A program made the translations under genes and the position numbers. The notes beneath the pieces are model-generated. The model was not told where the DNA came from and did not search any database. It was given only the letters and a program-made list of their open reading frames with translations. A DNA stretch of 64,000 nucleotides, taken from Denitrovibrio acetiphilus DSM 12809 (GTDB lineage Bacteria > Chrysiogenota > Deferribacteres > Deferribacterales > Geovibrionaceae). Shown here piece after piece: positions 57,917 to 64,000 of this stretch. How positions within the stretch are numbered: the first letter of the stretch is position 1; each line of letters opens with the position of its first letter. The DNA lies in contig NC_013943.1 of assembly GCF_000025725.1 (NCBI RefSeq), positions 2,542,001-2,606,000 on the forward strand, in the 5' to 3' direction.

Positions 57917-58384
57917 CTATTTCTTGAGTGCCTTTCCCATTTCTATGCGTATCACAAGCTCAAGGATGTTTTTCATTGTAACTGACTGTATCATAAGGTC
58001 ATAATCAGAAAGAAGAGAGGTCTCTTTCTCTGCCATCGCCTTATATTCCCGCCTGCTCATGGTCTTGATATAGGAATCAAGCTCTTTGTCTGTGTAGTGA
58101 GTTTTGTAAAAATTATAAATATCAGGTTTTACTTTTTGCCAGCTGAAAGTTTCCTTAACCTGAGCGGCTCCGGCATCAAGACCTTCTTTATCTTTAACAC
58201 GCAGATTTCCAGCTTTCATCATCGAAACAATGGGGGCATATATAGACCGAACAGCAGACTCATAGGCAGCAGGAGCACCTTTAAGTTCAAAAAACTTATC
58301 AAGCTGTTCATCTGTCGGCTGTCCGGCATGGACAATGCCTGACATGAAAAACAGTAAAAATGGAACAAAGATATACTTAATCAT
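57917..58384 (-). CDS. DUF2059-like secreted protein
   Basis: A 155-residue protein with a signal peptide ending VHA before GQPTDEQL. The C-terminal HYTDKELDSYIKTMSRREYKAM resembles the DUF2059 domain of secreted or outer-membrane-associated proteins. The start lies one base after the csrA stop, so it is the last gene of the flgK-flgL-fliW-csrA operon. A link to flagella is by position only. Confidence 0.72.
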   Translation of the reverse strand: MIKYIFVPFLLFFMSGIVHAGQPTDEQLDKFFELKGAPAAYESAVRSIYAPIVSMMKAGNLRVKDKEGLDAGAAQVKETFSWQKVKPDIYNFYKTHYTDKELDSYIKTMSRREYKAMAEKETSLLSDYDLMIQSVTMKNILELVIRIEMGKALKK

Positions 58385-58621: not shown

Positions 58622-59098
58622 TTAGTCCTGATTTTTAAATAGAGGCGATTTAATCTGCCACTTGTCGTCCTCAAGTATAACCTGCTTTGAGAGTTTTCTC
58701 TCAACATTCACAACCAGAGGGGCTCTGAGATTAACTGTTGCGTTCTTCGGCTGGTCAGGAACAACCACAATACCGAAAAGCTTAACATCCTTTTCTTCTT
58801 CAATAGAAAGTATCTTCAGGTCTCTTTTGCTGATCTCAGGTTTATAGTCCGGAAAGAATATCCCCGGCTCAACCAGTATAAAGCAAATATTTGCATCCTG
58901 AACTGACTGAAACCAGATAAACGGGTAAGATTTTTCATTAGATATCAGTACAAAGTCGTTTAGCTCCGGAAAGCCAAGTATCGGAGCAGACAATGTGATA
59001 ATATCTGCTTCATTGAATTCGATCTCCCCGAGTTTACTGGACATAATCTTACGGGTTTCCATTTGTGCCTCACATTTCTTTACTGAGCTTGTACTCAT
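58622..59098 (-). CDS. fliW: Flagellar assembly factor FliW
   Basis: Binds flagellin and CsrA, linking flagellin secretion to its translation. The protein has [28 protein letters not shown] and a [11 protein letters not shown]-like segment, plus the beta-barrel motif [10 protein letters not shown]. The start is uncertain: ATG 59098 (158 residues) has AGGGAG seven bases upstream, and ATG 59062 (146 residues) has GAGG. Preceded by flgL and followed by csrA. Confidence 0.94.
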
Positions 59099-59117
59099 GT
59101 ATATACTCCCTGAACTT

Positions 59118-62100
59118 TTACAGATAATCCAAAAGGCTTATCTGAAGAATTTGAGCTGTTGCAGCGAGCGCCGACTGATATACAGTCTGTGCCACAGTAT
59201 AGTTCGTAGCTGCTGCTGCCTGATCCATTGTTGTAGAACCAGTATACTCTGCTTTCAGCTTTTCGCTGGCTGTGATCAGCGATTCGTTAAATGTTACCGC
59301 AGATTCGGCTCTATTCTCTCTGTTACCGACAATGGTCAGGGCAGTGTGTATCTGCGACTCTGCTGTCTCCATCACTTTCATCTCGTAATCAATCCCCGAG
59401 CCAACCCCCACGGTGTAAGAATCTGTTGCAGCGAGTGTACCGGCGTCATAGTGATGGTAAACACCATCGGCGACATAGTATTTTTCATTTGCAGTGTCAA
59501 TAATGTAACTGCTTATCAGAGAACCGTCGCTCCCTGTAACTTTCATTTTGGCTATGTCGCCCCCTTTCTCTATGCCCAATGTACCTTCATAGTCACCGGA
59601 AACATGCATAGAGCTGTAGGCACCGCCAAAGCTAAAACTGAGCTGTGTTTCATTCATTGTCCCACAGGAAACATCCGGTGCAAGACCGGCATCTGTCAGT
59701 TTCTCGTTAATATTGTCAACAAGGTCGTCCAGCGACTGATAATTTTCAGCATCTACAACTATATTTGTTTCAGTATAGTTGCCGGAGCCGTCATCGGTAT
59801 AGAATGTCAGAGTTCTCTCTCCGATATTCTTTTCACTCAGGTCAAGGGTCGGGTTTGTTTTGGTCTCTATAGTGTTGGATGTCACCAGAGAGTAAAAGCC
59901 AAGTTCCCCGTTATCATCACCGGATACTATTATATCGTCAAAAGTTGCATCATGATTAATTTTTATTGTACCATCATCCCCAAGAACTGCGCTCATCGAC
60001 CCTGCGGCAAAGCCGTCAGCAACCAGAGCGGTATCGAGCTGATTATTAATCTCCGCCAGCAGAGCTGTATTGTCTGCATATATTCCGGCAGGAATAGTTA
60101 CAGAAATCGGGGTTGCAGTCCCCCATGCTCCACCTGTTTCATAATAAACATCAAGAACAGAATCTTCTTTCAGCTCAAGAGACGGAAGCTGTGTCCCGCT
60201 GGACTTGCTATCAACTCCGCTGAACATAAATGCAGTCTCGGTATTGTTATAATGCACGGTAAGCTCATTATTTCCGGAACCGGAGTCAATGCGCAGATTG
60301 CCATTTTCTGTATATGCATTAACACCTAAATTTTGCATATCACTGTCACTGTTGATCTGTCGAATGATTTCATCTGTAAGAGCGTTTTTGTCACCACCGT
60401 AAAGAGCCTGTGAGACACTGACTGTTTTCGTAAGAAACCCGTCTCCGGAAAGACTGTCGGAATGAATAACGATATCAAATGTTACAGGATCAACATTGTC
60501 CAGCATAGTTATGCCGTCAGATGTCCAGTACTGCTCAGACTGAATGTAATATTCAGAAGAGTCACCGTAGTTTTGCACCTCAAAGGTAAGAAGATCATTG
60601 TAATTACCTCTGAACTCACCATCCATATATGGTGTAGCAGTTGAATTCAGCGATTCATCAGACCATGCACTAGGTGCACCTATCCCTGAATCAGGAATGT
60701 TCAGATTAAGCGCATCGTACAGGTTTTGCAGAGAGCGGAAAACATTGACATTATCCCCCTCTTCCACAACATTCAGATCGCCAAAACTGAGGTTTGAATT
60801 TGCAGTCATATCAATAGTAAATGAACTGCCCACTATATCCCCCAGAACAATGCTCACACCCTGATTCAGATATATCTCTCCGCCTTTGTAGTCTGCTGCG
60901 GAAATAGGGTTTGAAGTGTTATCATAAAGCTTTGTACCATCCGAATCAGTAACCTGTATAATAACATCGTTACCTGAAACAGATACATCGACACTCCACT
61001 TATCATCTGCTGTGCCGGAATATCTCCCTGTGAGTGTCACATCCGGCTGAAGCATTGCATATCCTATTCCGGTGTTTTCTTCATCCAGACTGAATGTGAG
61101 CTTGCTCTCACCGCTTCTGATATCCGTAATCTGAAGCTGCCCGTCAACAACCTCTGCATTCACCGCCTGATTATAAAGATTCTCAATAAAATCAAGCATA
61201 TCACTGACAGTTTTCTCCTCTTCCATAGGGAAATCACCGCCCTTTGCAGAGTCATACTGATACTCATCAGCGCCTTCATCTATCCTTGTGGCAATATATG
61301 TATCTTTCGTATAGTTCTGATTCACCATCTCGATAGTGAGATCATACCCTCCGAACCCATCATCTGCGACAGTGGCATCAAAATCAAACTCAAGCCCCTT
61401 GTCTTTAAGAGCTTCATTAATCTTGTCCTGAATGTCACTCGCAGTATCTGTGTCATAAACAGTAAATTTAATTGCCTCATCATTAACATGGTAGGTATGT
61501 ACAGTCCCTGCTGGCGTACCGGTAATGGCAAGACCGGTATAGTTAGTCGCCACAGGTCCTAAATAGTTGCTGTATGACAAGTCAAAAGTAGTATCCTGCC
61601 CTGTATCTGAAACAGGAATATCCATAAAACCTAATGAGTTATAGTCTGAACCTGTGACACTGAGCTTCACCCCGCTGCCTGCCTTGTTTGTCATAAACAT
61701 AAGTTTGTCGCCATCGTTGACAGCAGTTATTTCCCCGCCAAGCCCCTGATTATCAAGCATTCTGTTGACATTATATACAACATCATCCATATCGCTGTAG
61801 CCTTTCTGGTCAAGCGTTATGCTGTAATCTTTACCTGCATAATTAATGGAAAGAGTGCGCTGCTCTGCTGTTGTATTTGTCATATCCAGGTCAACATTCT
61901 TAGGGCTTGCCACTCTGGCTGTACCTATTCTGTAACCGTTATGGTCTGTTCCCGTAAAGCTTATGGAGTCGGAAGAACTTACATTTGCTCCGTCTATTTT
62001 AGAAAATTTTGTAGTCTCTGAAATTGTAAGACCGTTCGAGGTATTAGGCATCGTTCCTAATATTGTTCTGAAGGTCTCCATAAAGATATCCTCACCGGAA

Positions 62101-62972
62101 ATATTAATCTGAACATTCTGATTATCTCCGATTTTGGAATTAATTGCCCCGTCATCTCCGACATATTCCACATCGTCTCCGGGTGTATAGTATAAAGACA
62201 TTGTGAGAGAATCTCCTTCCCCCATATCGTCAGGGAGTTTAATGCTCACCCCCCGCCCGGTACTGATAACTTGCCCGGCCTGAAAACCGGTTACAAGCGT
62301 ATCTGTTGTAAGGTTCCCGTTTTCAGTGGACTCATCACTGCCGTTGCTGTCCAGAAGTACCTGTTTATTGTTTGCATCCATCATAGTAACACGCACAACG
62401 CCGCCAACAACAGTCGCCTTGACAGTATAAGACCCTTTTGCAAGGTCGGGCATATCGGAATACAGTCTGGAACTGAACGCTTCACCGTCATCCATACTGG
62501 AAACAACAGAAGTCACCTGCCTGTCGCCGGAAGTGAAGGGTGCTTCTTCTGTCTCGTAGCCGCCGAAGATATACCGATCCAGATATTTTGAATTAGCAAG
62601 GTCGAGAAGTTCTTCATAGATATTCATAACCTCCCCTGCGAGAGCTTTACGGCTGTCTGCATCCTGCGAATCATTCTTACCAGCAACCGCAAGTTCATCC
62701 TTCGCCCTTGAAAGTATGCTGGAGGCTGTCTGAAGTATAGAATCTTCATTTTTCAGCCATATTAGAGCATTGTTAGCATTACGGTTATACTGAGTTGCAT
62801 CATCTATCGTACGCTGCATGTTAAAAGCTGTAAGGTAGTTAGTGGGATCATCTTCCGGATTAAGGAGGTTTCGCCCTGCTGTTACCTGTTCGCTTGATCT
62901 GACCAGAGTGTTCAGGGAAGAGTTAACACCGTGAAGATATTTCATTGTCATAAAGTTATAAGTTATTCTCAT
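59118..62972 (-). CDS. flgL: Giant flagellar hook-associated protein FlgL (hook-filament junction)
   Basis: A 1,284-residue form of FlgL (usually about 300 residues). The N-terminal coiled part MRITYNFMTMKYLHGVNSSL, RNLLNPEDDP and ANNALIWLKNED (1-135), and the C-terminal helix ENRAESAVTFNESLITASEK to the end (about 1200-1284), are typical FlgL/flagellin core segments. The inserted region (about 150-1190) looks built from repeated modules of 70-90 residues; copies start near residues 372, 494, 843, 952 and 1052, each like ITLDQKGYSDMDDVVYNVN followed by a Gly/Ser beta end. Two blocks (about 178-297 and 646-755) resemble the FlgL region around GDNQNVQINISGEDIF. It lies 15 bases after flgK. The modules are presumably surface-exposed on the junction. 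Confidence 0.9.
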   Translation of the reverse strand: MRITYNFMTMKYLHGVNSSLNTLVRSSEQVTAGRNLLNPEDDPTNYLTAFNMQRTIDDATQYNRNANNALIWLKNEDSILQTASSILSRAKDELAVAGKNDSQDADSRKALAGEVMNIYEELLDLANSKYLDRYIFGGYETEEAPFTSGDRQVTSVVSSMDDGEAFSSRLYSDMPDLAKGSYTVKATVVGGVVRVTMMDANNKQVLLDSNGSDESTENGNLTTDTLVTGFQAGQVISTGRGVSIKLPDDMGEGDSLTMSLYYTPGDDVEYVGDDGAINSKIGDNQNVQINISGEDIFMETFRTILGTMPNTSNGLTISETTKFSKIDGANVSSSDSISFTGTDHNGYRIGTARVASPKNVDLDMTNTTAEQRTLSINYAGKDYSITLDQKGYSDMDDVVYNVNRMLDNQGLGGEITAVNDGDKLMFMTNKAGSGVKLSVTGSDYNSLGFMDIPVSDTGQDTTFDLSYSNYLGPVATNYTGLAITGTPAGTVHTYHVNDEAIKFTVYDTDTASDIQDKINEALKDKGLEFDFDATVADDGFGGYDLTIEMVNQNYTKDTYIATRIDEGADEYQYDSAKGGDFPMEEEKTVSDMLDFIENLYNQAVNAEVVDGQLQITDIRSGESKLTFSLDEENTGIGYAMLQPDVTLTGRYSGTADDKWSVDVSVSGNDVIIQVTDSDGTKLYDNTSNPISAADYKGGEIYLNQGVSIVLGDIVGSSFTIDMTANSNLSFGDLNVVEEGDNVNVFRSLQNLYDALNLNIPDSGIGAPSAWSDESLNSTATPYMDGEFRGNYNDLLTFEVQNYGDSSEYYIQSEQYWTSDGITMLDNVDPVTFDIVIHSDSLSGDGFLTKTVSVSQALYGGDKNALTDEIIRQINSDSDMQNLGVNAYTENGNLRIDSGSGNNELTVHYNNTETAFMFSGVDSKSSGTQLPSLELKEDSVLDVYYETGGAWGTATPISVTIPAGIYADNTALLAEINNQLDTALVADGFAAGSMSAVLGDDGTIKINHDATFDDIIVSGDDNGELGFYSLVTSNTIETKTNPTLDLSEKNIGERTLTFYTDDGSGNYTETNIVVDAENYQSLDDLVDNINEKLTDAGLAPDVSCGTMNETQLSFSFGGAYSSMHVSGDYEGTLGIEKGGDIAKMKVTGSDGSLISSYIIDTANEKYYVADGVYHHYDAGTLAATDSYTVGVGSGIDYEMKVMETAESQIHTALTIVGNRENRAESAVTFNESLITASEKLKAEYTGSTTMDQAAAATNYTVAQTVYQSALAATAQILQISLLDYL

Positions 62973-62987
62973 GTCACCTTCTCCTTA

Positions 62988-64000
62988 CTAGCGTCCGCCT
63001 GTGCCAAGGCTATTTACGAGTTTTTCCAGCATTTCATCAACAACAGTAATAAATCTTGAGCTTGCTTCAAACGCCCGCTGAAATTTCATAAGGTTTGTCA
63101 TCTCTTCGTCCATAGACACACCCTTTACTTCTTCCAGTTTGAGCTCAAGCTCAGACATTGCCTGAGTTTTGGTTGTAACATATATGTCAACCGTGGCTTT
63201 ATCACTGCCTATGGACGCTGCAAAATATGCATAAAACTCATCCACAGTAACGTCCATACTTGTCATGATATTAGTGTCTTTAAGATCAGCTATCGCAGCA
63301 GCATTCTGGTTATCTCCGGCAGCACCTGTCTGTGAAGTTGCGATGTAGCTGTTATTGGACATGATTATATCTGAAACCGCGATCGTAGAAGCATCACTAC
63401 CAGCAAAAAAGCCGTAAGTTCCGGATGCTACCAGAAAGTTTGATGTATCTTCTGCAAATGTAAAATCATATCCAGAACCGGAAGTAAATTTTATTGTATT
63501 CCCGCTGGACATAGAAGCCTGAATCATCCCGCCATTCGGATTGCCGTCTGCTGCTGATATCTTGGCAATAACCGAGTTAAGATTATCTTTTGCCGGATCT
63601 ATTACAATATCAAGATCCTCAACTTTATTGCCCTCTGTGTCATATATACTTATACGCAGCGTTCCTGCCTGTATCTCTATAGGAAATGCGCCTGCTGGTT
63701 CGCTGAATGTATACGTAGGGTTTGTTACCCCGTTCGACGAAGATATCTGAGTCAGGCGGTTTGTTCCCTGTCCCAGAGAGTGGATTTTATTTGTTTCAGT
63801 AATCATAACATTGGCGAGTTCATCAAGCTGGTCCTGATATCCCTGTATCAATTCATCACGAACATAAAGCTCGCCTGCGATCTCTCCTGATGTGAAGGCA
63901 TTGGTTATGTCAACCAGCTTATTGCTCTGCCCTTCTGTCCCCCAGAAGATGCTCACATCGTCACTGTCTTCATCTGCCTGTTCTGCTTTCAGCTCAAAGC
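62988..64000 (-). CDS. flgK: Flagellar hook-associated protein FlgK, C-terminal part (runs off the window)
   Basis: The open frame continues to the window edge, so this is the C-terminal 337 residues or so of a longer gene; the apparent start (GTG 63956) is internal. The C-terminus has TNLMKFQRAFEASSRFITVVDEML and EKLVNSLG, the typical FlgK end helix, and DELANVMITETNKIHSLGQG is another FlgK segment. It forms the first hook-filament junction ring, next to FlgL encoded 15 bases downstream. Confidence 0.93.
   Translation of the reverse strand, partial: FELKAEQADEDSDDVSIFWGTEGQSNKLVDITNAFTSGEIAGELYVRDELIQGYQDQLDELANVMITETNKIHSLGQGTNRLTQISSSNGVTNPTYTFSEPAGAFPIEIQAGTLRISIYDTEGNKVEDLDIVIDPAKDNLNSVIAKISAADGNPNGGMIQASMSSGNTIKFTSGSGYDFTFAEDTSNFLVASGTYGFFAGSDASTIAVSDIIMSNNSYIATSQTGAAGDNQNAAAIADLKDTNIMTSMDVTVDEFYAYFAASIGSDKATVDIYVTTKTQAMSELELKLEEVKGVSMDEEMTNLMKFQRAFEASSRFITVVDEMLEKLVNSLGTGGR

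Follow-up and report, generated by a model that had tools for sequence, protein, structure and literature searches.

A FlgL protein of 1,284 residues with a modular outer region in Denitrovibrio acetiphilus, and its relatives across the Deferribacterota

FlgL is the protein located between the flagellar hook and the filament. In the solved hook-filament junctions, eleven FlgL subunits constitute the distal ring, with their D2 domains facing outward and bulky in Campylobacter jejuni (PMC12221982), and the outer domains of the solved FlgL proteins branch from D1 (PMC6155364, PMC12221982). The FlgL of Xanthomonas campestris (5ziz, 5zj0) has a D1 rod that carries, as an insertion, an outer beta-sandwich domain, D2 (PMC6155364), and that of C. 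jejuni has 750 residues (9gsx chain A; PMC12221982). The FlgL of Salmonella has 317 residues. Salmonella flagellin has 495 (PMC6248924). Enlargement of an outer region has been described for the giant flagellins of Bermanella and Oleibacter, whose central outer region exceeds 1,000 residues as a result of internal duplication and insertion and whose filaments are thick (PMC6248924). The same study raised the question of whether a similar enlargement extends to other parts of the flagellum.

Denitrovibrio acetiphilus N2460T is a motile, marine, and obligately anaerobic member of the Deferribacterota (PMC3035293). Its genome consists of one contig of 3,222,077 bp, from which we have analyzed a window of 64,000 nucleotides (positions 2542001-2606000). 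The ORF at 59118-62972 of this window encodes a true FlgL with canonical ends (Table 1). It has an ATG start, 1,284 codons, and no internal stops, its product scores 156.8 bits against the NCBIfam equivalog TIGR02550 (cut-off 127.2), and residues 1-149 match the solved Salmonella FlgL 9go6. The preliminary description of this DNA had proposed a giant FlgL with conserved ends flanking an insertion of about 1,000 residues, and this is what we find: both Flagellin_N and Flagellin_C are present on canonical helical ends, and the outer (D2) region is enlarged to an insert of 1,047 residues. The assignment of the protein as a flagellin (FliC) was rejected because the best-scoring models and the nearest solved sequences are those of FlgL. 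The genome has separate genes for two main flagellins of 793 and 816 aa and for one of 663 aa; the latter (L074:1598-3589, minus strand, genome 2904500-2910000) is a third, divergent flagellin with a Flagellin_IN match above the Pfam cut-off. An ORF antisense to flgL (58995-60329, plus strand) was also rejected as a frame without support.

Table 1. Features of the flgL region, in coordinates of the window
Feature	Position	Strand	Support
flgL, whole gene, 1,284 aa	59118..62972	-	Intact ORF; TIGR02550 above cut-off; 41 complete intact orthologues
N-terminal D0/D1 helices, residues 1-148	62529..62972	-	Flagellin_N (PF00669) 3-139; long helices in model
Beta block A, residues 149-310	62043..62528	-	Beta-rich in model; related to block B
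Module R1, residues 356-453, Flagellin_IN-like	61614..61907	-	hhalign with R5, R4; HMM searches; pooled PF07196 matches
Module R2, residues 454-580, divergent	61233..61613	-	hhalign with R1; fold order in model
Beta block B, residues 581-765	60678..61232	-	hhalign A-B; begins with half IN-like element (581-645)
Module R3, residues 807-925, divergent	60198..60554	-	hhalign with R4, R5; fold order in model
Module R4, residues 926-1036	59865..60197	-	hhalign with R5; absent as one unit in four families
Module R5, residues 1037-1140	59553..59864	-	hhalign with R1, R4; HMM searches
Conserved beta segment, residues 1141-1195, preceding C-terminal helices	59388..59552	-	Mean pairwise identity 0.56 (20 genomes)
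C-terminal D1/D0 helices, residues 1196-1284	59121..59387	-	Flagellin_C (PF00700) 1199-1284
flgK, 3' part within window	62988..63998	-	584 aa in genome, ordinary size
fliW	58622..59098	-	PF02623 1.2e-39
csrA-like, 77 aa	58386..58619	-	Assigned by sequence resemblance only (first 23 protein letters not shown)

The gene lies in a flagellar neighborhood with the order flgG-flgA-flgH-flgI, unassigned frames, an ORF of 159 residues encoding a FlgN-like protein, flgK, flgL, fliW, and the csrA-like gene, several of these names coming from inspection of the translations without a family search. The flgK gene is directly upstream of flgL, at a distance of 15 bases. After csrA there is a gene for a secreted-looking protein of 155 residues (57917-58384, minus strand) that matches no Pfam family at E<=1.

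To place this size in context, 86 genomes outside the phylum having both FlgL and FlgK were compared. Their FlgL frames have a median of 383 residues and a maximum of 1,228, and thus the standard length of near 300 residues assumed in the preliminary description is only roughly right. Every complete FlgL of the Deferribacterota exceeds 1,130 residues, and the protein here is roughly fourfold its usual size. Long FlgL proteins as such are not new: this one occupies the large end of the known range, since at least 700 residues are reached in 12 of the 86 outside genomes and at least 1,000 in two, and it is fixed across one phylum.

A FlgL match was found in 48 of the 51 genomes of the phylum. 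Among the other three, one is 73% complete and two also lack FlgK and flagellin. These two (G013 and G020) are nearly complete genomes of one family and are therefore probably non-flagellated; G027, which carries the same genus label, has all three proteins. The 41 complete orthologues range from 1,138 to 1,532 residues, and their identity falls with kinship, from about 60% within the genus to 46-54% within the family, 33-43% within the order, and 27-30% beyond. A genome scan with two peptide patterns found full-length relatives only in Deferribacterota, the matches outside the phylum covering mainly the N-terminal helices (best 80 of 305 matches). A literature search, which reached part of the field, found no reports on the FlgL of Deferribacterota.

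An assembly or annotation artefact, i.e., a fusion or a missed frameshift, has practically no chance of explaining the size. It is true of one case, a 3,226-residue version in genome G018 whose frame runs through N and which was rejected, but the 41 complete orthologues come from independent genomes and keep intact frames, and synonymous changes dominate. The whole-gene dN/dS of flgL in close pairs is about 0.04-0.21, as estimated by simple counting with several synonymous distances saturated. With values far below 1 and so many unbroken orthologues, a gene split by frameshifts, which would have undermined the preliminary description, is refuted. In a different gene, the flgK match at G001:C29:42916-43899 contains one internal TAG, which may reflect either an error in the sequence or a true interruption of the gene.

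The borders of the FlgL segments were set from the alignment of the 41 complete orthologues, and the fold was predicted with AlphaFold2 as a monomer (residues 40-1239, on the same alignment, thus with the D0 ends absent), giving a mean pLDDT of 85.8 and a pTM of 0.71. The insert contains two series of modules, R1-R2 and R3-R4-R5, that sit between the related beta blocks A and B and the C-terminal beta segment, with one linker between block A and R1 and another between block B and R3. At the level of sequence profiles, R1, R4, and R5 are proven copies of one module. The hhalign comparison of the orthologues gave probabilities of 99.3% for R1-R5, 99.0% for R4-R5, and 97.6% for R1-R4, against at most 0.7% for the N-terminal helices with any module, and the HMMs of R1, R4, and R5 each recover the others within FlgL. 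The evidence that R2 and R3 are further copies is weaker, combining moderate profile scores (R1-R2 73.5%, R3-R4 64.4%, R3-R5 68.4%) with the model, where all five modules share a predicted order of strand-strand-helix-strand-strand-strand. Their first strands lie near residues 373, 490, 830, 938, and 1054, within about 15 residues of the repeat starts read earlier from the sequence (372, 494, 843, 952, and 1052). The five repeats and the two beta blocks of the preliminary description are therefore borne out, by the profile alignment, which contains the repeat signal whose absence would have spoken against them, and by the structure prediction. The relationship between blocks A and B is supported at a lower probability (64.5%) than that of R1, R4, and R5.

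The repeats are old, since no DNA-level tandem repeat remains in flgL. They differ between lineages as whole units: orthologues of families f2, f3, f7, and f8 have a gap of about 110 residues at 920-1031 that corresponds to the absence of the entire R4, and two genera carry an extra R4-type module inside R3. This extra copy is found by an R4 HMM built without those two genera (2.8e-21 and 6.9e-22, at single-sequence database size). In the module tree, each copy groups with those of its own position at the minimum number of changes, on few columns and with many open forks. In the D. acetiphilus genome, a search for more module copies returned only three strong ones, all of them in flgL. Growth of the insert through intragenic duplication is the natural reading of these data.

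Such duplication could also have been mere drift, with outer modules that are tolerated but have no specific function. The additional R4-type copy in two genera, the all-or-none loss or gain of R4, and the weak conservation of R2-R4 (mean pairwise identity of 0.30-0.33 over 20 genomes) fit this explanation. We consider it rather improbable, since all complete members of the phylum stay above 1,130 residues, every segment is under purifying selection, R4 being often the least constrained by dN/dS, and other parts of the insert match the core in conservation. In the same 20 genomes, the terminal helices have mean identities of 0.536 and 0.464, compared with 0.465 for block A, 0.481 for block B, 0.56 for the linkers, and 0.562 for the C-terminal beta segment. 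Conservation within the insert is highest in blocks A and B and in the C-terminal beta segment, at about the level of the FlgL core. Such conservation points to a structural part with contacts in the ring, and the variability of the other modules to an exposed surface. For flagellins from nearly the same genomes, not all of them strict orthologues, the identity is 0.734 in the core versus 0.442 in the outer region.

The Flagellin_IN motif (PF07196) occurs in flagellins and FliD. The fold of the FlgL modules resembles this motif: PF07196 matches 15 of 31 pooled R1, R4, and R5 sequences (E<=0.1, best 2.4e-06), although R1 of D. acetiphilus on its own (0.049) is below the Pfam cut-off. In a fold search, R1 is nearest to Campylobacter and Helicobacter FliD and to Geovibrio thiophilus flagellin, each match being weak (best E 0.013), and weak sequence matches of the modules in the PDB are to Vibrio cholerae flagellins. 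The unit of D. acetiphilus differs from the motif in being longer, about 100 residues, and in occurring five times in one FlgL. The closest solved fold to the whole protein is the C. jejuni FlgL of the junction-cap complex (9gsx_A, E 4.3e-08), followed by the FlgL of Xanthomonas and Legionella and by the G. thiophilus flagellin 9au6. The C. jejuni protein, about 530 residues shorter, shares the bulky outer D2 and the 11-subunit distal ring, matches in sequence at both ends, and also has the element that begins block B (i-E 5.7e-05). The X. campestris FlgL, built on the same plan of a D1 rod with an inserted outer domain, has a single outer domain without repeated modules.

The element with which block B begins also occurs in FliD-type ORFs of two genomes outside the phylum, G160 and G294, and block A with the same ends is found in FlgL proteins of 633-789 residues from other phyla (G084, G229, and G282). 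As these modules and elements recur in flagellins, FliD, and FlgL, the insert consists of components shared by the outer surfaces of flagella. The FliD-like cap proteins of G160 and G294 have 1,287 (L117:817-4680, minus strand) and 1,284 residues (L118:653-4507, plus strand), and both genomes have a long FlgL as well, of about 907 residues.

The preliminary description had offered an adhesin, a glycosylated sleeve, or a phage-evasion coat as the role of the insert. These roles are not supported as stated, as the modules are of an ordinary flagellar outer-domain type, the inner blocks are conserved like the FlgL core, and no Pfam family of adhesins or surface-binding domains was found above the cut-off in the insert. 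An adhesin or another interaction surface at the filament base is thus unlikely, even though R2-R4 are the most variable segments, the number of modules differs between families, and an insert placed beyond the D1 core is exposed in the FlgL proteins of known structure; besides the sharing of the modules with flagellins and FliD and the conservation of the inner blocks, the presence of this FlgL in environmental and gut members alike, among the part of the phylum named in the pattern scan, argues against it.

In Campylobacter, flagellin is glycosylated. A comparable glycan scaffold on the insert is conceivable because a glycosyltransferase-like gene (Maf/MptE, PF01973), encoding a protein of about 650 aa, adjoins a flagellin gene in D. 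acetiphilus; the same neighborhood in G003 and G006 suggests flagellin glycosylation in the phylum. However, this gene has no genetic link to flgL, and the Ser+Thr content of the insert (19%) is nearly equal to those of the FlgL core (17.7%) and of the flagellin outer region (20.6%), and hence a glycosylated sleeve has a low probability too. The D. acetiphilus gene is the PF01973 match at G000:C1:467117-467623, outside the window, in a 651-residue frame some 1.5 kb away from the flagellin gene.

The other extracellular parts of the flagellum provide a different clue. In D. acetiphilus, the hook protein has 829 residues, the flagellins 793-816, and the cap 904, while FlgK has 584. Across the phylum, flagellins mostly have 750-1,000 residues, FliD 869-1,349, and FlgE 805-1,375 (the last two from 10 genomes, as stop-to-stop frames that are slightly overlong), and FlgK remains at 574-628. 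The largest hook (1,375 residues; G048:C1:1644297-1644653) and cap (1,349 residues; G046:C24:27517-27801) frames belong to distant members of the phylum. In the 86 genomes outside the phylum, there is no length compensation between FlgL and FlgK, but a weakly positive relation (Spearman 0.39).

Because the outer domains of homologous solved FlgL branch from D1, the insert is expected to lie on the outer face of the junction, as had been suggested from the sequence. Eleven FlgL copies would form the distal ring, the D0/D1 contacts to FlgK and flagellin would be normal, and the insert would lie outside them as a collar, continuing the surface of an unusually thick flagellum over the junction and making the ring stiffer. 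We regard this structural collar as the probable role, since hook, flagellin, and cap are enlarged while FlgK is not. A rough volume estimate gives a ring 228-299 Å wide for 11 inserts versus 184-230 Å for the flagellin layer, so the insert may stand out as a collar or spread axially, perhaps over the small FlgK. Against the collar, this estimate makes FlgL wider than the filament and not flush with it, the size matching is a correlation within one phylum that FlgK does not follow, and the variable distal modules also fit an exposed, interaction-prone surface. As FlgK stays small next to large hook, filament, and cap proteins, it is also tentatively possible, although doubtful, that FlgL alone supplies the outer layer of both junction rings, its insert folding back over FlgK to give a single uninterrupted collar running from the hook to the filament. 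Among the records searched, there was no junction structure from Deferribacterota.

In comparison with the Bermanella and Oleibacter flagellins, where the enlarged protein is that of the filament, in D. acetiphilus it is a junction protein. With four of the five extracellular parts large across the whole phylum, FlgK being the exception, the Deferribacterota bear on the question raised by the giant-flagellin study (PMC6248924). The data suggest that junction proteins can enlarge via intragenic duplication of filament- or cap-type modules. The phylum offers a system in which to ask what the outer domains of junction proteins do. It includes a motile type strain in culture, and the filament structure of a close genus has been solved (G. 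thiophilus, 9au6).
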